DNA of 64,000 bases from Bosea sp. RAC05 (lineage in GTDB: Bacteria > Pseudomonadota > Alphaproteobacteria > Rhizobiales > Beijerinckiaceae), in assembly GCF_001713455.1 (NCBI RefSeq), contig NZ_CP016464.1, positions 743,501-807,500 of the forward strand, read 5' to 3'. Position 1 is the first letter of the stretch. Each line of letters opens with the position of its first letter. Shown here piece by piece: positions 3,314 through 26,508 of the stretch. Both the position numbers and the translations under genes were made by a program. The notes beneath the pieces were generated by a model. The model did not search any database, was not told the origin of the DNA, and was given only the letters and a program-made list of their open reading frames with translations.

Positions 3314-4381
<1,068 letters not shown>

Positions 4382-15734: not shown

Positions 15735-17651
15735 TCAGCTGGCGCGGGCCGCGCGCGGACCCGGCGCGCGCGTGACCCAGAGCCAGACGGCCGTGGCCGC
15801 GAGCAGCGCCAGCCCCGCCAGTTGCGTCACCGCGAAGGGCAGGAAGAGCCCGATCCCGCCCGCCCCCAGCAGCACGCGGGCGGCCAGGCCGAGGCGGGAG
15901 AACAGATAGCCCTCGATCGCGGCGTTGAGGGCGATGACGCCCAGTGCCACCGCCGCGACGGACAGGACCGTCTGCCAGACCGGTCCGATCATCAGCAGCG
16001 ACGGCTGATAGATGAAAACGAAGGGCAGGATGAACGCGACCATCGCGATCCGGCAGGCGACGACGGCGATCATCACCGGATTGGCTTTCGCGATCGAGGC
16101 CGCCGCGAAGGCCGCGACCGCGACCGGCGGCGTGATCGCGGACATCGAGGCGATGTAGACGATGAAGAGATGCGCCGGCAGCACCGCGATGCCCAGCGCG
16201 ATCAGGGCCGGCGCCGCCAGCACCGCCGAGAGCGCGTAGACCGCCGGGGTCGGCATGCCCATGCCGAGCACGATGATGACGAAGGCGGCGACGAGAATGG
16301 TCAGGATCGGGCTGCCGCCGGACATGTGGAACAGCCCAGAGCTGATCTTGCCCGTCAGGTCGGTCATCGAGAGCGTCCCGACTACAAGACCCGCGATGGC
16401 GCAGGCCACGCCGACGCCGATCATGCCCCGCATGCCGTCGCTCAGGCCGAAAAAGACCGTCTTGACCAGCCGGACCGGGTCGGGATGGCGCAGCAGGGCG
16501 ACCGGGAGCAGGGCGGCGCAGGCGATGGCTCCCGCGAAGGCGGGCCGGTTCAGGCTCAGCACGCCCCAGACCAGAAGCCCGATCGGCAGGAGATAGGCCC
16601 AGTCGCGCCGCAGCACGGCCAGGATCGAGGGCGTCTCGCCCTCCGACATCGGCGAAAGCCCGTCCCGATGCGCCTTGAAATGCGCCGCAAGAAACACCGA
16701 CTGGTAGTAGAGCAGGGCGGGGATGAGGGCCGACAGCGCGATCGTGGCATAGGGAATGCCGGTGAAGTCCGTCATCAGGAACGCGGCCGAGCCCATCACC
16801 GGTGGCAGCAGGGCGCCGCCCGTCGAGGCCGCGGATTCGATCGCGCCGGCATAGGTCCGGCTTGTCCCGGTCTTGATCATCAGGGGGATGCTGAAGGAGC
16901 CGGTGGTCACGACGTCGGCCGTCGGTGAGCCCGAGATCGATCCGTAGAGGCCCGACGAGACCACCGCGACCTTGCTGGCCCCGCCGACCTGCTTGCCGAC
17001 CAGGCTGTTGGCGATGTCGTAGAAGAAATCGGCGCCGCCGATCCGGTCGAGCAAGGCCCCGAAGACGACGAAGACGACGACCAGAAAGGCCGCGACCTCG
17101 AGCGCCGGGCCGAACAGCCCGTTGGTCGAGAACACCAGATGGTCGACGATCTCCTGCGTGCTGAAGCCGCGATGGGCGAAGGAGCCGGTCAGCTTGCTGC
17201 CGAAGATCGCGTAGGCGAGGAAGGTCGCGACCAGCACGACGAGGATCATCCCGATGCAGCGCCGCGTCGCCTCCATCACCAGCGCGATCAGCACGATCGA
17301 GGCGGCGATGTCGGCGGTGGAGAGTTCGTCGATCATCGGCAGCCGCATCTCGTGGACCGGCTGCATCGCCACGAAGTAGCCGCAGGAGGCGATCGAGAGC
17401 GCGACCAACCCCCAGGCAAACCAGGAGCGGCCGGTCGGCCGCAGCGGGTTGGCCGTCGTCGTCAGGAAGGCCAGGGCGAGAACCGCTCCGAGGAACAGAA
17501 ACAGGGCGATCTCGCGCTTGACATACCAGCCGAAGGAGATGGCGATCAGCAGCACGGCCGCTGCGAAGCCGACGACATGCACCGTCCACTGCTCCGGCGC
17601 GCCGAGCTGTCGGGATCGTCCCGGTGCGATCAGCTTCAGCAGGGCGAGCAT
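15735..17651 (-). CDS. TRAP transporter fused permease (TAXI type, 4TM-12TM)
   Basis: Integral membrane protein of 638 aa in which the small and large TRAP permease subunits are fused, as in TAXI-TRAP systems. The first ~170 residues form the small-subunit part. The rest is the large DctM-like part, with glycine-rich motifs such as GAASGVASG-like SAASTGGALLPPVMGSAAF and GMGMPTPAVYAL. Transport uses an ion gradient and a periplasmic binding protein. The gene lies 49 bp downstream of the TAXI binding-protein gene and shares its strand, so the two form an operon. It converges on the SUMF1-like gene with only 8 bp between stops. Substrate unknown; many TAXI systems take dicarboxylates such as glutamate. 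Confidence 0.9.
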   Translation of the reverse strand: MLALLKLIAPGRSRQLGAPEQWTVHVVGFAAAVLLIAISFGWYVKREIALFLFLGAVLALAFLTTTANPLRPTGRSWFAWGLVALSIASCGYFVAMQPVHEMRLPMIDELSTADIAASIVLIALVMEATRRCIGMILVVLVATFLAYAIFGSKLTGSFAHRGFSTQEIVDHLVFSTNGLFGPALEVAAFLVVVFVVFGALLDRIGGADFFYDIANSLVGKQVGGASKVAVVSSGLYGSISGSPTADVVTTGSFSIPLMIKTGTSRTYAGAIESAASTGGALLPPVMGSAAFLMTDFTGIPYATIALSALIPALLYYQSVFLAAHFKAHRDGLSPMSEGETPSILAVLRRDWAYLLPIGLLVWGVLSLNRPAFAGAIACAALLPVALLRHPDPVRLVKTVFFGLSDGMRGMIGVGVACAIAGLVVGTLSMTDLTGKISSGLFHMSGGSPILTILVAAFVIIVLGMGMPTPAVYALSAVLAAPALIALGIAVLPAHLFIVYIASMSAITPPVAVAAFAAASIAKANPVMIAVVACRIAMVAFILPFVFIYQPSLLMIGPVWQTVLSVAAVALGVIALNAAIEGYLFSRLGLAARVLLGAGGIGLFLPFAVTQLAGLALLAATAVWLWVTRAPGPRAARAS

Positions 17652-17700: not shown

Positions 17701-18684
17701 TCACTTCAGCAGGCCGGCTTTCCGATAGGCGGCCTCTGCGCCGGGATGGAGCGCCAGCGGCGCGGTCTGCGTCAGGTTGACCGGCTCGAGCCGGGCCATC
17801 ATCGCATGCGCCTGCCGCAGATAGTCGAAATGCTTGATCATGCCGTCGACGATCAGGGCGGCATCCTCGTTCTTCATCTCGGCCGAGGCGAAGAGAACGA
17901 CGCTACCGGTGATCGTCGGCACCGCCGCCGGCTGGAAGGCATAGGTCCCCGCCGGCACGGTGATCGGCGCCGTGCCGAGCAGGGCGCCGAGCTTGGCGGT
18001 CGCGTCCGGCGAGATGCCGAGCATCTTGACCTTCATTTCGCGCGTCGCGCTGTTGATCTGGCCGGAGGGGAAAGCGAGCATGTTGATGATGACGTCGACC
18101 TGGCCGTTCTTCATCATCTCGAGGCCGGCATTGTAATCGACATGGTGGATGCGGCCGCCCCAGCCCTCGATGTCCTTGGCCGTGATGCCATAGGCCTTGA
18201 ACACCTCTTCGCCGGTCACCGCCATCAGCGTGCCGCGCTGGTTGAGCGCGATCCGCACCGGCTTCTTCGCGGCGAGGATGCTCTCGAAGCTCTCGATGCC
18301 GGCGTCCTCGCGGACGAGGATCTGCACCGCCGCCTGCGGGTCGATCAGCGCAATGGCGCGCAGATTGGTGATCGGCGCCTTGAAGGGTTCCTCGCCGGCC
18401 TGCGCCCGCTTCACCAGCTGCGCATGGGCGATGCCGAGCTCGACCTTGCCGGTCGAGACCAGCTGGATGTTCGCGGCCTCGCGCCCCGGCTCATAGCCGA
18501 AGGCGGCGCCCGGCGATTCCCGTCGGATGGTTTCGCCGATGGCGTTGCCGATGGCGCTCCAGGCGCCGCCGACGGAGCCGCCGGTCAGGGTGATCTTCTT
18601 TGCCGGTGCGGTCTGTGCCGCCGCCGGAAACGCCCCGATTGCCAGCGCGGCCGCGACGAGCGTCGTGAAAGCCAGTCTCTTCAT
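17701..18684 (-). CDS. TAXI-family TRAP transporter solute-binding protein
   Basis: Periplasmic binding protein of 327 aa with a signal peptide (MKRLAFTTLVAAALAIGAFPAAAQ). The mature N-terminus KKITLTGGSVGGAWSAIGNAIGETI is the hallmark of the TAXI class. The ORF is open upstream to 18933, but the ATG at 18684 follows GGGAGGGG and starts the signal peptide, so it is chosen. First gene of a two-gene operon with the fused permease. It is divergent from nadC across a 449-bp gap. That gap, and the lack of other neighbours, raises the possibility that the transported ligand relates to the nadC-side genes; nothing in the sequence proves this. Confidence 0.9.
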   Translation of the reverse strand: MKRLAFTTLVAAALAIGAFPAAAQTAPAKKITLTGGSVGGAWSAIGNAIGETIRRESPGAAFGYEPGREAANIQLVSTGKVELGIAHAQLVKRAQAGEEPFKAPITNLRAIALIDPQAAVQILVREDAGIESFESILAAKKPVRIALNQRGTLMAVTGEEVFKAYGITAKDIEGWGGRIHHVDYNAGLEMMKNGQVDVIINMLAFPSGQINSATREMKVKMLGISPDATAKLGALLGTAPITVPAGTYAFQPAAVPTITGSVVLFASAEMKNEDAALIVDGMIKHFDYLRQAHAMMARLEPVNLTQTAPLALHPGAEAAYRKAGLLK

Positions 18685-19133
18685 GGTTCCCCTCCCAGCC
18701 TCGTGTCGGACACGGCCCGGAAGCGGGCCGCCAACCGAAGGCCGCCGGCCGATAATGCCGGCGGATGATCTGACGTAGCTGCCGTTTCCCGGCGGCTTCA
18801 AGCCGCCTTGTCGAATGCTGACTTGCGCAGCACGATGGGGAGTTTGTTGGTGTGCATATGGGTTGTCAATGCTGCTCATCGCCCAAACGGGGAGCGTGCA
18901 CTGCAGCAAATTTTTGCAACCTGCGCGGGACAACTATGATTGTCGTGCTGAAATCGTCGGCTGCTGCGCGAAGCCGGGCCTCGGCGCAACACATCGACCA
19001 ATCCTTGCTTGACACATCCGGGCCCGCTTCGCATCGTTGGTACACAAACGGTCATCGGATCGGGCCATCCGTGCTATTCGCTCCCCATGGCGAAGCCCGC
19101 ACGCGCTGGCGGGGCACAGGGCAGGGGCTGAGA
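18685..19133. promoter_or_regulatory. Divergent regulatory gap between TAXI-TRAP operon and nadC operon
   Basis: 449 bp without a convincing gene, more AT-rich than its surroundings. On the plus strand TTGACA at 19009-19014 could be a -35 box for nadC; the hexamer 17 bp on (CATCGT) is a poor -10. On the minus strand a TTGACA lies within the stretch around 18850-18875 and could serve the TRAP operon. Two GTTGGT half-sites, one near 18846 and one near 19035 (the latter within TTGGTACACAA), recall GntR-type sites but do not form a strict palindrome. No structured RNA was recognised. Confidence 0.35.
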
Positions 19134-19967
19134 ATGTATGACCGTTTCACCACCCAGCGGCTGATCGATCTCTGGCTGAGCGAGGACATCGGCTCCTGCG
19201 ACCTGACCGTCCAGGTCATGATCGAGCCGACGGAAACCGGCGCCTTCCGCATGAATGCCCGCGAATCGATGGTGATCGCGGGGCTCGACGTGGCGGCCGC
19301 CGTCTTCGCCCGCTACGAGCCGCGGCTGTCGGTCAAGGTCGAGGCCGCGGATGGCGACCGCGTCGAGAAGGGCGCGACGCTGATCCTGGTCGAGGGTCCG
19401 GCCCAGGGCATCCTCACCGCCGAGCGCACGGCGCTGAACATCGTCCAGCGGCTCTCGGGCATCGCCACCGAGACGGCGCGCTATGTCGACATCATCAAGG
19501 GCACGCGCGCCCGGTTGATCGATACCCGCAAGACCACGCCCGGCCTGCGCATGCTGGAGAAGCATGCGGTCGCCTGCGGCGGCGGGCTGAATCACCGCCT
19601 CGGGCTCGATAACGGCGTGATGATCAAGGACAATCACATCGCCGTCTGCGGCGGCATCGCCGAGGCGGTCGAGCGCGCCCGCCGCAAGCTGCCCGTCCTG
19701 ACCAAGCTCGAGGTCGAGTGCGACCGGCTGGAGCAGGTGCGCGAGGCGGTCGCCGCCGGAGCCGACGTGATCATGCTCGACAACATGCCCGTGCCGGAGA
19801 TGACGGAGGCGGTCGCCTATGTCGCCGGCCGCGCCAAGCTGGAAGCGTCGGGCGGCATCCGCTACGAGACGATCCGCGCCGTCGCCGAGACCGGCGTGGA
19901 CTACATCTCGACCAGCAAGATCACCCAGTCGGCGCCCGCCGTGGACATCGGGCTCGACGAGGCCTGA
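19134..19967 (+). CDS. nadC: Nicotinate-nucleotide pyrophosphorylase (quinolinate phosphoribosyltransferase)
   Basis: Cytoplasmic enzyme of 277 aa joining quinolinate to PRPP to give nicotinate mononucleotide, CO2 and pyrophosphate in NAD synthesis. Family signatures are intact: ERTALNIVQRLSGIAT, the DTRKTTPGLR loop, a KHAVACGGGLNHRLGLDNGVMIKDNH stretch (about residues 140-165) and the C-terminal EASGGI phosphate site. The ORF opens at 18852, but residues before MYDRF are non-conserved, so the ATG at 19134 is used. nadA and nadB are absent here, and the next gene, 16 bp on, is the PhnN-phosphorylase fusion. ModD-like proteins are close paralogues and cannot be wholly excluded, as an unusual NadC away from nadAB could use another pyridine acid. 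Confidence 0.85.
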   Translation: MYDRFTTQRLIDLWLSEDIGSCDLTVQVMIEPTETGAFRMNARESMVIAGLDVAAAVFARYEPRLSVKVEAADGDRVEKGATLILVEGPAQGILTAERTALNIVQRLSGIATETARYVDIIKGTRARLIDTRKTTPGLRMLEKHAVACGGGLNHRLGLDNGVMIKDNHIAVCGGIAEAVERARRKLPVLTKLEVECDRLEQVREAVAAGADVIMLDNMPVPEMTEAVAYVAGRAKLEASGGIRYETIRAVAETGVDYISTSKITQSAPAVDIGLDEA

Positions 19968-19983
19968 AGGCGACCGGAACTCC

Positions 19984-22038
19984 ATGCGGCCAGGCATCCT
20001 CTTCGTCGTCGTCGGGCCGAGCGGGGCCGGCAAGGATACGCTGATGGACGGGGCCCGGCGGGCCCTGGCGCAGGGCGGGCGCTTCGGCTTCGCGCGGCGC
20101 CTGATCACCCGCCCGGCCGATGCCGGCGGGGAGGACCACGAGGCGATCGACGAGGCCGGCTTCGCCGCGCTCGCGGCCAAAGGTGGTCTTCTCGTCTCAT
20201 GGCAGGCGCATGGGCTGCACTACGGGCTGCGCGCCGCGCTGCGGGACGATCTCCTCGCCGGCCGCCACATCGTCGCCAATGGCTCGCGCGGGGTGCTGGA
20301 GACGCTCGCCGGCGCCGTGCCGCGGCTGATCATCATCAACGTCACCGCCTCGCCCGAGACGCTCGCCCGCCGTCTCGCCTCCCGCGGACGCGAGACAGCG
20401 CAGGACATCGCCGCGCGCCTCGCCCGCAAGCCGCCGCAATGGCCAGACGGCATCGAGACCATCGCGGTCTCCAACGATGGCACGGTCGAAGAGGGCATCG
20501 AGCATTTCCTGGCCGCCATCGACGCCGCCACCCGCCGCCTGTCGCTGAAGCCCGTTCCGATCGATGGCTGGCGCGACAGCATCGCCTATCTGCCTGGTGA
20601 CAGCCTGCTCGGCGTTTCGGATTTCGACGGGCCGGGCAAGGTCGACGTCGCCGGCCCAATCGACGCGCAAGGAAAGCGAAGCAGTATCCGCGCCCGCGTC
20701 AACGTCGTCGAGGCCGGCTGGCTGCTGGAGCCACATGAGATCGGCCTGTCGCGCGAGGCCTTCGCGCAGCTTGGCCTGCCCGAAGGCAGCGAGATCACGC
20801 TGACACGCACCCCGCCGCAGCACAGCCGCGACGCGCTGCGCGCCAAGATCCAGGGCGCCGAGCTTGGCGCCGCCGACTACGCCATGCTGCTGCGCGACAT
20901 CGTCGAGGGCCGCTACCCGGAAGGCGAGATCTCCGCCTTCCTCGTCGCCGCGACGCGCTCGCTCAGCGATGCCGAGGTCGCGGCGCTGGCCAGCGTGCGA
21001 GCCGGCTTCTCGACGCCGCTGCGCTGGGACGAGCCGATCGTCGTCGACAAGCATTCGATGGGCGGCATCCCCGGCAGCCGCATCACGCTCATCGTCGCGC
21101 CGATCGTCGCCGCCCATGGGCTGGCCATGCCCAAGACCTCCTCGCGCGCCATCACCTCGGCCGCCGGCACGGCCGATGCGATGGAGGTGCTGGCCAGGGT
21201 CGACCTGACGGAGGACGACGTCCGCCGCACGGTGGCGCAGGCGCGCGCCTGCATCGCCTGGAACGGCCGCCTCAATCACTCCGCCGTCGACGACGTGATG
21301 AACGCGATCACGCGCCCGCTCGGGATCGATTCCAACCGCTGGTCGGTCGCCTCGATCATCTCGAAGAAGCTGACGGCAGGCTCGACCCATGTCGTGGTCG
21401 ACCTGCCCTATGGCCGCCGTGCCAAGCTCCACAGCGAGGCCGAGGCACGCGAACTCGGCGCGCTGTTCGAGAGCGTCGGGCGGTCCGTCGGCCTGCAGGT
21501 CGAGGCGGTCGCGACCTGCGGCGCCGGGCCGATCGGCCGCGGCATCGGGCCGGCGCTCGAGGTCCGCGACGTGCTCTGGGTGCTGGAGGGCGATGCCCAG
21601 GCCCCGGCCGATCTGCGCGAGAAGGCGCTCGACTTCGCCGGCCGAATCCTCGCCTGGGACCCGGCGATCGGCTCAGCGGTAGCGGGTCGCGCCCGGGCGG
21701 CCGAACTCCTGGCCTCGGGCGCGGCGCGCGCCGCTTTGGACGGGATCATTGCCGCCCAGGGACGCCGCGACATCGTCGCGAAGCCCGCAGCCCTCACCCA
21801 CACCATGCGCGCCTCCCGCGCCGGGCGGATCAGCGAGATCGACGGCTGGCGCATCGCCGGCATCGCGCGCCGCGCCGGAGCCCCCTTCGACAAGAGCGCC
21901 GGCATCGACCTGCTGCGCGCCGTCGGCGACGACGTCACGGCCGGTGAGGGGCTCTTCACCATCCACGCCGCGGCGGCGCCCGATCTCGAGGCGGCAGTCG
22001 CGCTAGCGGCTGCGGATGAGGGGTTCGTCTTGGCCTGA
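19984..22038 (+). CDS. Fusion: PhnN-type ribose 1,5-bisphosphokinase + AMP/thymidine phosphorylase-like enzyme
   Basis: 684-aa two-enzyme fusion. Residues 1 to ~185 are a PhnN-like kinase (Walker A GPSGAGKDT at about 10-18, lid region RLASRGRETAQDIAARL) that would turn ribose 1,5-bisphosphate plus ATP into PRPP. From ~195 to the end it matches the archaeal-type AMP phosphorylase branch of the thymidine phosphorylase family. It has an N-terminal small beta domain, the phosphate motif KHSMGG at about 356, and PKTSSRAITSAAGTADAMEVL at about 383-403. That enzyme would make ribose 1,5-bisphosphate from a nucleotide and phosphate, the substrate of the other half. No stop or frameshift separates the domains. 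The upstream 55 codons of the ORF overlap nadC and were excluded. No C-P lyase genes are present. Confidence 0.85.
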   Translation: MRPGILFVVVGPSGAGKDTLMDGARRALAQGGRFGFARRLITRPADAGGEDHEAIDEAGFAALAAKGGLLVSWQAHGLHYGLRAALRDDLLAGRHIVANGSRGVLETLAGAVPRLIIINVTASPETLARRLASRGRETAQDIAARLARKPPQWPDGIETIAVSNDGTVEEGIEHFLAAIDAATRRLSLKPVPIDGWRDSIAYLPGDSLLGVSDFDGPGKVDVAGPIDAQGKRSSIRARVNVVEAGWLLEPHEIGLSREAFAQLGLPEGSEITLTRTPPQHSRDALRAKIQGAELGAADYAMLLRDIVEGRYPEGEISAFLVAATRSLSDAEVAALASVRAGFSTPLRWDEPIVVDKHSMGGIPGSRITLIVAPIVAAHGLAMPKTSSRAITSAAGTADAMEVLARVDLTEDDVRRTVAQARACIAWNGRLNHSAVDDVMNAITRPLGIDSNRWSVASIISKKLTAGSTHVVVDLPYGRRAKLHSEAEARELGALFESVGRSVGLQVEAVATCGAGPIGRGIGPALEVRDVLWVLEGDAQAPADLREKALDFAGRILAWDPAIGSAVAGRARAAELLASGAARAALDGIIAAQGRRDIVAKPAALTHTMRASRAGRISEIDGWRIAGIARRAGAPFDKSAGIDLLRAVGDDVTAGEGLFTIHAAAAPDLEAAVALAAADEGFVLA

Positions 22039-22211: not shown

Positions 22212-22712
22212 TCACGGCCTCGGCATCTTCAGCGGGTCGATCGAGATCGCGCGCTTCAGCGTGCGCAAGCCGAAGGTCGTGCGCGTCTGGCGGATGCCGG
22301 GGATGCGGTAGAGCGTCTCGCGCAGGAAGCGCTCATAATGGTCGGTGCCGCTGACCACGACCTTGACGAGGTAATCGTATTCGCCGGTGACGAGATAGGC
22401 CTCGACCACCTCCGGAATCCGCGTCAGCGCCTCGCCGAAATGGTCGAGGATCTTGTCGTCATGCTTGTCGAGCGTGATCTCGACGAAGACGACATTGCCG
22501 AAGCCCAGCGCCTTCTGGTCGAGCACCGCGACGTATTTCTCGATCGCCCCGCTCTCCTCCAGCCGCTTCACCCGTGTCCAGCAGGGCGAGGGCGAGAGCC
22601 CGACCTTCTCGGCGAGTGCATTGACGGTCAGGCGGCCGTCCTCCTGAAGGGCGGAGAGAATCCGCAGATCGGTGGCGTCCGGTTCATCGCTCCGGCGGTT
22701 GCGTGGTATCAC
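22212..22712 (-). CDS. bkdR: Lrp/AsnC-family regulator, divergent from the bkd genes (BkdR-like)
   Basis: Transcription regulator of 166 aa with an N-terminal helix-turn-helix (DLRILSALQEDGRLTVNALAEKVGLSPSPCWTRVKRLE) and a C-terminal RAM ligand-binding domain (YLVTGEYDYLVKVVV). It reads away from the branched-chain oxoacid dehydrogenase operon across 226 bp, the arrangement known for bkdR in Pseudomonas, where an Lrp-type protein activates bkd in response to branched-chain amino acids. By analogy it probably does so here. The start used is GTG at 22712; no good ribosome site is visible, so the exact start is uncertain. Confidence 0.85.
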   Translation of the reverse strand: MIPRNRRSDEPDATDLRILSALQEDGRLTVNALAEKVGLSPSPCWTRVKRLEESGAIEKYVAVLDQKALGFGNVVFVEITLDKHDDKILDHFGEALTRIPEVVEAYLVTGEYDYLVKVVVSGTDHYERFLRETLYRIPGIRQTRTTFGLRTLKRAISIDPLKMPRP

Positions 22713-24168
<1,456 letters not shown>

Positions 24169-24172
24169 CGCC

Positions 24173-25188
<1,016 letters not shown>

Positions 25189-25189
<1 letters not shown>

Positions 25190-26508
25190 TGGCCGAGCGC
25201 ATCGTCAAGCTCCCCGATGTCGGGGAGGGCATCGCCGAGGCCGAGCTGGTCGAATGGCACGTCAAGGTCGGCGACATCATCCGCGAGGATGATTTGCTGG
25301 CCGCCGTGATGACCGACAAGGCGACCGTCGAGATTCCCGCCCCCGTCGACGGCAAGGTCACCTGGATCGGCGCCGAGATCGGCGACACGGTCGCGATCGG
25401 CTCGGCGCTGGTCAGGCTCGAGGTCGCGGGCGAGGGCGCAGCCACCGAAGCGCCGGCCGAGGACGCCGCGCCAGAACAGACTGCGGAGGCACCCGCAGCA
25501 CAAGCGCCGGCCGCGTCGGCTCCCCGTCAGCCCGAGACGGCCGAGGAACCGCCGCGCGCGATGACCGTGCCGCGGCCCGCCAAGGCACTGGCGGGTGCCG
25601 CTGCTCCCGCTCCGGCCCTGCCGCGGCGCGCGCCGGGCGAACGGCCTCTGGCCTCTCCCGCTGTGCGGCTCAAGGCCCGCGAGGCCGGCATCGATCTGCG
25701 CCAGGTCGCCGGCACCGGCCCGGCCGGGCGCATCCTGCACGAGGACCTCGACGCCTTCCTGCTGCGCGGGCCCGAGGCCGAGCGCAAGCCCGGCCTCGCC
25801 GAGAAGACCGCCGTCAGCGAGGTCAAGGTCGTCGGCCTCCGGCGCAAGATCGCGGAGAAGATGGCGCTGTCGAAGGCGCGCATCCCGCACATCACCATCG
25901 TCGAGGAGGTCGACGTCCAGGCGCTGGAGGATCTGCGCGCGGTCCTCAACAGGAAGCCGACGCCCGAGCGCCCAAAGCTCACGCTTTTACCCTTCCTGAT
26001 GCGCGCCATGGTCAAGGCCCTGGCCGAGCAGCCCAACCTCAACGCGCTCTATGACGACGAGGCGGGCATCGTGCGCCAGCATGCCGGCATCCATCTGGGC
26101 ATCGCCACGCAGACGCCGGGCGGGCTGATGGTCCCCGTGGTGAAGCATGCCGAGGCGCGCGACATCTTCGGCTGCGCGCTGGAGCTCAACCGCATCGCCG
26201 AGCGCGCCCGGCAGGGCACCGCCACCCGCGACGAGCTGACCGGCTCGACCATCACCATCACCTCGCTGGGCACCATGGGCGGCATCGCCACCACGCCGGT
26301 GATCAACCACCCGGAGGTCGCCATCGTCGGCGTCAACAAGATGATGATCCGCCCGGTCTGGGACGGCACCACCTTCGTCCCGCGCAAGATGATGAACCTG
26401 TCCTCCAGCTTCGACCACCGCGTGGTCGACGGCTGGGACGCGGCCGTCTTCGTCCAGCGGCTCAAGGAGCTGCTGGAGAACCCGGCGACGCTGTTCATCG
26501 ATGTCTGA
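25189..26508 (+). CDS. bkdB: Branched-chain 2-oxoacid dehydrogenase E2 (dihydrolipoyl acyltransferase)
   Basis: E2 core subunit of 439 aa. Domains in order: one lipoyl domain (residues 1-80) with the lipoylated Lys at about 44 in [10 protein letters not shown]; an Ala/Pro-rich linker (about 82-145); an E1/E3-binding peripheral domain ([23 protein letters not shown], about 150-185); and the catalytic acyltransferase domain to the end with the FDHRVVDG active-site His. It moves the acyl group from E1's ThDP to CoA. The single lipoyl domain is usual for BkdB. The start overlaps the E1 beta stop. The E3 gene follows after 15 bp. Confidence 0.93.

Follow-up and report, generated by a model that had tools for sequence, protein, structure and literature searches.

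A nadC-linked PhnN-phosphorylase fusion of Bosea sp. RAC05 as part of a candidate quinolinate-to-nicotinate module with a recycled phosphoribosyl carrier

PhnN is the ribose 1,5-bisphosphate phosphokinase of the phosphonate operon of Escherichia coli, and the described nicotinate catabolism comprises the Azorhizobium/Eubacterium type, with hnr and an enamidase, and the maleamate type, encoded by nicABCDXF. The archaeal AMP phosphorylase, a nucleoside monophosphate (NMP) phosphorylase, acts on AMP, CMP, and UMP (PMC9700705). Bordetella and other betaproteobacteria salvage quinolinate through NadC with the binding proteins Bug69/Bug27, and Sorci et al. (2024) noted that bug27 orthologues of Variovorax and Jezberella adjoin nadC and phnN, which they read as NAD metabolism with phosphoribosyl pyrophosphate (PRPP) supply (PMC11452294). 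The bacterial pathways set out in the consulted parts of two further papers start from nicotinate or 6-chloronicotinate, and none from quinolinate via NadC (PMC3511419, PMC9304392). A joint action of fungal 3-hydroxyanthranilate and nicotinate clusters has been proposed, with no phosphoribosyl step in the consulted part of that account (PMC7842363). Here, we describe a gene pair in a 64,000-nucleotide stretch of Bosea sp. RAC05 (contig NZ_CP016464.1, positions 743,501 to 807,500; hereafter the window), in which nadC is followed, after 16 bp and on the same strand, by a gene encoding a fusion of a PhnN-like kinase and a nucleoside phosphorylase-like enzyme.

We suggest that the neighboring importer, NadC, and the fusion probably constitute a module converting quinolinate to nicotinate with recycling of PRPP. 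The importer, a TAXI-type tripartite ATP-independent periplasmic (TRAP) transporter in the window, would bring in quinolinate, from which NadC would form nicotinate mononucleotide (NaMN), CO2, and pyrophosphate at the expense of PRPP, a reaction that is established for this enzyme. The phosphorylase half may then use phosphate to cleave NaMN, which would release nicotinate and ribose 1,5-bisphosphate, and the PhnN half would convert the latter with ATP to PRPP and ADP, as is established for its family. The net reaction would be quinolinate + phosphate + ATP giving nicotinate + CO2 + pyrophosphate + ADP, with PRPP as a recycled carrier, and nicotinate would enter ordinary catabolism through nicotinate hydroxylase and then Hnr/enamidase or NicC/NicX. 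That the flux runs from quinolinate to nicotinate is likewise what we infer. Since a catabolic flux through NadC would otherwise spend one PRPP per quinolinate, such a cycle would account for the kinase and the phosphorylase being tied to each other and to nadC. With somewhat less confidence, we favor the broader view that this is a new catabolic pathway, a phosphoribosyl cycle in which PRPP would be loaded for decarboxylation, removed by a new NaMN phosphorylase activity, and re-energized by the fused kinase, and that its genes have spread as a cassette among alpha-, beta-, and possibly gammaproteobacteria.

The preliminary description of this locus had read the 684-residue frame as one protein in which a phosphorylase passes ribose 1,5-bisphosphate to a PhnN-like kinase that makes PRPP, and the family profiles support this reading. 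The fusion passed the PhnN model TIGR02322 (185.1 bits over residues 4-180, cut-off 156), as well as NF003338 (592.2 bits over residues 229-681, cut-off 434) and TIGR02645 (451.5 bits, cut-off 434.6); "thymidine phosphorylase", as used for the last two, is a family name and not a tested function. With the AMP phosphorylase model TIGR03327, the fusion scored 381.9 bits, below the cut-off of 535. The AlphaFold2 model of the whole fusion was confident (mean pLDDT 90.5, pTM 0.76), and its best matches in the PDB were the AMP phosphorylases 4ga5 and 4ga4, the latter with a root mean square deviation of 1.8 over 412 columns. The window NadC passed TIGR00078 of NCBIfam (329.8 bits, cut-off 198.4), aligned with the solved quinolinate phosphoribosyltransferases 1x1o and 3paj, and has in common with 1x1o the segment DTRKTTPGLR, which we take to have a catalytic role in these enzymes. 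The TAXI binding protein (TIGR02122, 149.9 bits, cut-off 84.35) and the fused permease (TIGR02123, 568.4 bits, cut-off 320.65), which are divergent from nadC, identify the importer as a TAXI-type TRAP transporter.

When the genome was searched with the fusion as the query, matches fell at four places. Besides the fusion itself, these were two guanylate kinases and a thymidine phosphorylase of the DeoA type; a second PhnN was thus not found by this search. Nine fusions of the betaproteobacterial type (L104, L134-L136, L138-L141, and L148) lack residues ~185-280 through in-frame gaps, and the N-terminal 84 residues of the archaeal enzyme contribute to multimer formation (PMC8376864), so this region is probably dispensable for catalysis. 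C-P lyase genes were not among the profiled neighbors in the window (NadC, TAXI, TRAP permease, and Lrp); profiling did not extend to every other neighbor, and no genome-wide search for phnJ was made. Within 15 kb of the fusion, the annotated plasmid records L103 and L105 carry no other annotated phn gene. Public annotation of these two records (L103:14159-17154 and L105:14116-17082) names the product "phosphonate metabolism protein/1,5-bisphosphokinase (PRPP-forming) PhnN" and leaves the phosphorylase half unnamed.

The nadC-fusion arrangement is real and beyond chance, because the pair recurs in other genera and classes and the model of the whole protein is confident. In the genus sample, a full-length fusion was present in 27 of 61 genomes (26 as one match, and G466 as two matches within one open frame), with nadC directly upstream on the same strand in all 27; G467, in which nadC and the first 73 residues of the fusion stand at a contig end, lies outside this count. 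Of the 80 loci kept from named genomes, 23 were of the fusion type (L120-L141 and L148), and nadC adjoins the fusion in 22; in the remaining one, L132, the contig begins 139 bp before the match and the nadC side is off-contig. A contig end cuts the fusion in L126, nadC is partly off-contig in L133, and a MarR-like gene stands between nadC and the fusion in L136. Plasmid records with a match of at least 80% of the query, from Variovorax sp. SRS16, Paraburkholderia sp. 22B1P, and Pacificitalea manganoxidans, were linked to nadC in three of three cases. In a draw of 398 genomes from the phylum, 45 matched; the five with fusions (G000, G466, G841, G768, and G712) were all linked to nadC, whereas of the 40 others, 30 had no PhnN or nadC match in the fetched stretch and 10 had frames of at most 537 residues. 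The linkage to nadC suggested in the preliminary description is thus conserved in all four samples. In a draw of 385 genomes from the class, fusions were chosen by open-frame length and tblastn among 84 matching genomes, not all of which were searched for the kinase. The samples overlap; for example, L118 and L124 are from one genome (G466), Bosea accounts for four of the 23 named loci, and L248 of the phylum draw carries the genes of L138.

As a control, stand-alone phosphorylases of the same superfamily had a nadC match in the fetched stretch, many of these stretches having only ~1.5 kb of flank, in 1 of 57 named loci (L178) and in 0 of 24, 0 of 30, and 0 of 15 loci of the phylum draw, the class draw, and the others, respectively. 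The lone case, L178:10283-13269 from Novosphingobium arvoryzae, has a nadC match with 52% identity ~1 kb downstream. Identity to the NadC of the window is 71-77% for the fusion-linked NadCs of Variovorax E3, Cupriavidus, and a genome labelled Pseudomonas, whereas seven genomes of the genus that have nadA and no fusion carry a different nadC, at most 2 kb from nadA, whose product reaches only 48-51%. This pattern suggests that the nadC-fusion pair is a cassette passing from class to class. Closest among the named fusions are those of a Bosea metagenome-assembled genome (MAG) (96%, L126) and Bosea vaviloviae (87%, L120). In L131:9157-12039, which was counted among the 23 named loci and in the fusion group, nadC is followed by two frames, one for PhnN and one for the phosphorylase, that overlap at ATGA, with TAXI genes next to them; this is possibly an unfused form or an assembly slip. 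In L102 (G018), only the PhnN half is left (positions 3584-4135, 82% identity) at the same syntenic place, and the phosphorylase half and nadC are gone, while hnr is kept; this is a decayed locus.

The predicted base pocket of the phosphorylase half was compared in an alignment of the enzyme from Thermococcus kodakarensis with 71 stand-alone relatives and 50 fusion-type rows, some of which are near copies. At positions 427 and 432, the fusions have Asn (50/50) and His (49/50), where the stand-alone enzymes have Gly and Leu (71/71 each); at positions 440 and 443, they have Asn (50/50) and Thr (43/50) instead of Ile (67/71) and Glu (70/71); and at position 339, Arg (50/50) replaces Met (70/71). 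The archaeal enzyme agrees with the stand-alone relatives at all five positions. In pyrimidine nucleoside phosphorylases, a Tyr stands opposite position 440 and an Arg opposite position 443, and by homology this Arg is presumably Arg171 of E. coli thymidine phosphorylase. Arg171 interacts with the base at its C-4 substituent (PMC5238616). The loss of Glu and the gain of Asn and His in the predicted pocket would suit a carboxylated pyridine. In a quick tree, the fusion-type phosphorylases (37 of 109 rows) fall on one side of a branch with an SH-aLRT value of 100.

The neighbors of the pair in other genomes point to the destruction of nicotinate, which would not be expected if nadC served NAD alone. 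Two alphaproteobacterial MAGs (L128 and L129) have nicA-like, nicB-like, hnr, UPF0280, nadC, and fusion genes in this order in a run on one strand, with NicA/NicB-like proteins that are only 34-44% like those of Neorhizobium. Trinickia mobilis (L148) has nicC, nicA, nicB, nadC, and the fusion, with nicD, nicX, and nicF divergent; its NicX was identified through 7cn3 (1.6e-120) and its NicC through 5eow (2.3e-168), and nicD and nicF were named from fold family and place. In Zwartia (L140), genes for enamidase, hnr, UPF0280, and nicA come after the pair, and in L247, nicC, nicA, and nicB flank the pair. Bosea loci L122 and L124 have hnr or an enamidase gene beside the pair, and in relatives of the genus (L072-L077 and L079), hnr, UPF0280, and two PF06684 genes are oriented away from nadC. 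L078 and L080 have the pair followed by ferredoxin-reductase-like, ferredoxin, and enamidase genes, and L078 also has electron-transfer flavoprotein-like genes (named by eye). The enamidase was identified through PDB 2vun (3.6e-106) and hnr through plasmid annotation. We excluded as nicotinate evidence the molybdenum hydroxylase genes upstream in locus L127, which are only 41% and 30% like nicA/nicB. Another gene met in this context encodes an FRG-domain protein (PF08867), seen in the stretches fetched for 9 of 52 nadC-fusion loci (L086, L103, L104, L121, L127, L135, L137, L138, and L148) and 0 of 68 stand-alone loci, whose stretches were often shorter; it also occurs in L246 and L248. The assignment came from Pfam for seven proteins and L246 and from BLAST for L248.

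Co-occurrence is consistent with this picture. In the genus, 26 of the 27 genomes with a full-length fusion have hnr (E ≤ 1e-60), against 9 of the remaining 34 (Fisher p 1.3e-8, uncorrected for relatedness), and two of these nine (G018 and G467) keep a remnant or contig-cut copy of the pair. In the class draw, 68 of 385 genomes had hnr, including all four recognized fusion genomes (G000, G125, G415, and G441). Among the named fusion genomes, hnr (E ≤ 1e-40) was found in 14 of 23, and seven of the other nine have a NicX-like protein of at least 47% identity to a query that came from one of these seven genomes.

In the genus, nadA (E ≤ 1e-20) was not found in 24 of 27 fusion genomes, including that of the window (nadB was not searched for), although taken alone the comparison of 3 of 27 fusion with 7 of 34 non-fusion genomes having nadA is not significant (Fisher p 0.49). 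The more telling point is that those seven non-fusion genomes have the different nadC that lies close to nadA. 3-Hydroxyanthranilate dioxygenase was not found in 16 of 27 fusion genomes, and both enzymes were not found in 15 of 27, including that of the window; quinolinate is therefore most likely imported. Because no more than 11 of the 27 fusion genomes have the dioxygenase, quinolinate from kynurenine was rejected as the sole general source. nadC itself (E ≤ 1e-20) was not found in 26 of 61 genomes of the genus, such as G002, G004, and G011, which probably live on NAD salvage.

The preliminary description held that the divergent TAXI importer may feed a ligand, and an importer of some type is kept beside nadC and the fusion in many lineages. 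It is of the TAXI type in the window, eight fetched close relatives (L064-L071), L085, L086, L105, L117, L120, L126, L131, L137, and L246. Three other transporter types take this place elsewhere, namely an SsuA-like ABC transporter (L078, L081-L084, L104, L121, L125, L130, and L135), a TTT (Bug) binding protein (L103, L123, L127, and L136; weak matches of 27-33% in L139 and L140 were excluded from the counts), and a carrier resembling the major facilitator superfamily (MFS) (L134, L138, and L248). A transporter that varies beside an unvarying enzyme pair suggests that the substrate is the same throughout. The binding protein of Variovorax E3 has Bug27 as its best PDB match (2qpq, 4.8e-136), and Bug27 binds quinolinate in vitro with sub-micromolar affinity (PMC11452294). 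By extension from this Variovorax-type protein, the one compared with a measured quinolinate binder, the TAXI, ABC, and MFS importers may also carry quinolinate.

The stand-alone type-2 phosphorylases have neighbors of their own. Among 12 of their loci (L087 and L090-L100), a PRPP-synthetase-like gene was seen in 6 and a beta-CASP/RMMBL nuclease gene in 8, one member of each family having been checked by Pfam. This context is as expected if the stand-alone enzymes use nucleotides from RNA, and it suggests that these loci are an RNA-to-PRPP recycling set.

Several observations weigh against a quinolinate-to-nicotinate cycle. The correlation with hnr in the genus ignores relatedness, and one fusion genome of the genus, G031 (92% complete), has no hnr that we could find. 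Two of the 23 named genomes have neither hnr nor a convincing NicX (33% identity in G480; none in G486, a genome of 2.4 Mb), and the three plasmid records taken alone have hnr in none and NicX in one. In the window's genome, the nicotinate cluster (enamidase, MarR, nicA-like, nicB-like, hnr, and UPF0280) lies ~2.4 Mb from the pair, and the two are non-adjacent in the nearest relatives too. The 11 fusion genomes with 3-hydroxyanthranilate dioxygenase could make quinolinate internally. The pocket argument is based on an alignment whose 50 fusion rows include near copies. Finally, in two genomes of one other genus, a PhnN-like gene (37% identity) and the gene of a stand-alone phosphorylase point away from each other, with no nadC nearby (L095:7504-9598 in L095/L037 and L099:8092-10261 in L099/L050), so the pairing of kinase and phosphorylase is not unique to a pyridine context.

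It had been proposed in the preliminary description that AMP is the substrate and NAD synthesis the purpose; in this model, or in a salvage form of it, the phosphorylase would cleave AMP or another nucleoside monophosphate, and the kinase would make extra PRPP with which NadC makes NAD from quinolinate. This proposal, which we now consider unlikely, agrees with the fact that the closest solved relative is an archaeal AMP/NMP phosphorylase, with the reading of Variovorax nadC-phnN-bug27 by Sorci et al. as PRPP supply to quinolinate phosphoribosyltransferase (PMC11452294), and with the PhnN-like gene beside a stand-alone phosphorylase in one genus, which suggests a nucleotide-to-PRPP pairing. 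However, the score of the fusion missed the AMP phosphorylase cut-off, its predicted pocket is unlike those of the archaeal enzyme and the stand-alone bacterial relatives, and the PRPP-synthetase-like and beta-CASP genes frequent in the 12 stand-alone loci were not seen in the clustered fusion loci. An NAD purpose is also difficult to reconcile with the scarcity of nadA in the fusion genomes, with a genus in which many genomes have no nadC that we could find, and with the repeated placement of the pair in gene runs that destroy nicotinate. Considering the missing nadA, the pocket residues, and the catabolic neighbors, we rejected this as the main role.

The same reactions could serve another purpose, the conversion of quinolinate to nicotinate or NaMN being mainly a vitamin source for NAD or a way to dispose of surplus quinolinate rather than a supply of carbon and nitrogen food. 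The 15 fusion genomes that lack both tested quinolinate-making enzymes would fit an imported vitamin as in Bordetella (PMC11452294). NadC alone, however, already yields NaMN for NAD, so splitting NaMN would be wasteful, and nicA, nicB, hnr, and nicC occur in the same gene runs as the pair; we give this purpose a low probability, below that of AMP cleavage. Least probable by far is a thymidine or deoxynucleoside phosphorylase joined to a kinase for phosphonate breakdown, as the family names of the best-scoring models would have it. The Arg of pyrimidine phosphorylases is Thr443 in the fusion; the thymidine phosphorylase role was rejected because the genome has a separate DeoA, and a C-P lyase role because no phn neighbors were recognized, either among the profiled genes of the window or by annotation within 15 kb in L103 and L105. 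The quinolinate-to-nicotinate module with PRPP recycling remains the reading that we prefer.

The features of the locus are listed in Table 1; the start of the TAXI binding protein was set by eye at the signal peptide. Downstream of the pair, the window carries at 22212-26508 a gene for an Lrp-type regulator (by profile) and a branched-chain keto-acid dehydrogenase-like operon (named by eye). Among the loci compared, these genes adjoin the pair only in close relatives of the window, so they are probably unrelated to it.

Table 1. Features of the nadC-fusion locus, in window coordinates
Feature	Position	Strand	Basis
nadC (quinolinate phosphoribosyltransferase, 277 aa)	19134..19967	+	open frame; TIGR00078
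PhnN-phosphorylase fusion, 684 aa, ATG start	19984..22038	+	open frame, profiles, predicted structure
PhnN (ribose 1,5-bisphosphate phosphokinase) domain, residues 4-180, P-loop GPSGAGKDT	19993..20523	+	TIGR02322
N-terminal part before the catalytic phosphorylase domain, ~residues 186-280, archaeal-type-like	20539..20823	+	NF003338 match starts at residue 229
Type-2 nucleoside(-monophosphate) phosphorylase catalytic domain, residues 282-681	20827..22026	+	NF003338; 4ga4 superposition
Predicted base-pocket segment, residues 426-444 (WNGRLNHSAVDDVMNAITR)	21259..21315	+	fusions and stand-alone phosphorylases differ here (alignment)
TAXI-family TRAP solute-binding protein, candidate pyridine-dicarboxylate binder	17701..18684	-	TIGR02122; kept beside nadC-fusion
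Fused TRAP permease	15735..17651	-	TIGR02123; kept beside nadC-fusion
Divergent intergenic region between importer and nadC, 449 bp	18685..19133	.	sequence read

If the proposed cycle operates, quinolinate could be burnt through nicotinate without a drain on PRPP, and a function would be found for a fusion that current annotation calls "phosphonate metabolism protein PhnN". It would also account for nadC in bacteria without NadA and would add an NaMN phosphorylase activity and a degradative pathway in which PRPP acts catalytically. A defined pathway of this kind would be a tool to remove or sense quinolinate, a pyridine dicarboxylate and a neuroactive metabolite of tryptophan.

The linkage of nadC, phnN, and bug27 is already in print, and the phosphorylase half is not named in the main text of that paper, in which the words "phosphorylase" and "kinase" each occur 0 times; it gives an NAD biosynthesis reading and, in the consulted parts, no nicotinate catabolism or PRPP recycling (PMC11452294). 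Among open-licence papers, by titles and abstract starts, on PhnN-phosphorylase, PhnN-NadC, hnr clusters, and quinolinate-nicotinate degradation, the cycle was not described. Compared with the salvage by Bug69/Bug27, the locus is alike in having NadC apparently without the upstream NAD steps and a candidate quinolinate-binding protein linked to nadC. The T. kodakarensis AMP (NMP) phosphorylase TK0352 (4ga4-4ga6) is alike in fold and phosphate-side motifs, and the product would likewise be ribose 1,5-bisphosphate. However, the fusion is only 34-40% identical to it in the structure alignment, falls below the AMP phosphorylase family cut-off, and has N, H, N, and T in the pocket instead of the archaeal G, L, I, and E; moreover, it carries a kinase, is bacterial, and occurs with nadC. 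Like E. coli PhnN, the fusion passes the PhnN equivalog model and has the P-loop GPSGAGKD, but it is joined to a phosphorylase and stands beside nadC, with no recognized C-P lyase cluster. As for the known nicotinate catabolism, its genes adjoin the nadC-fusion pair, or share a one-strand run with it, in several lineages.

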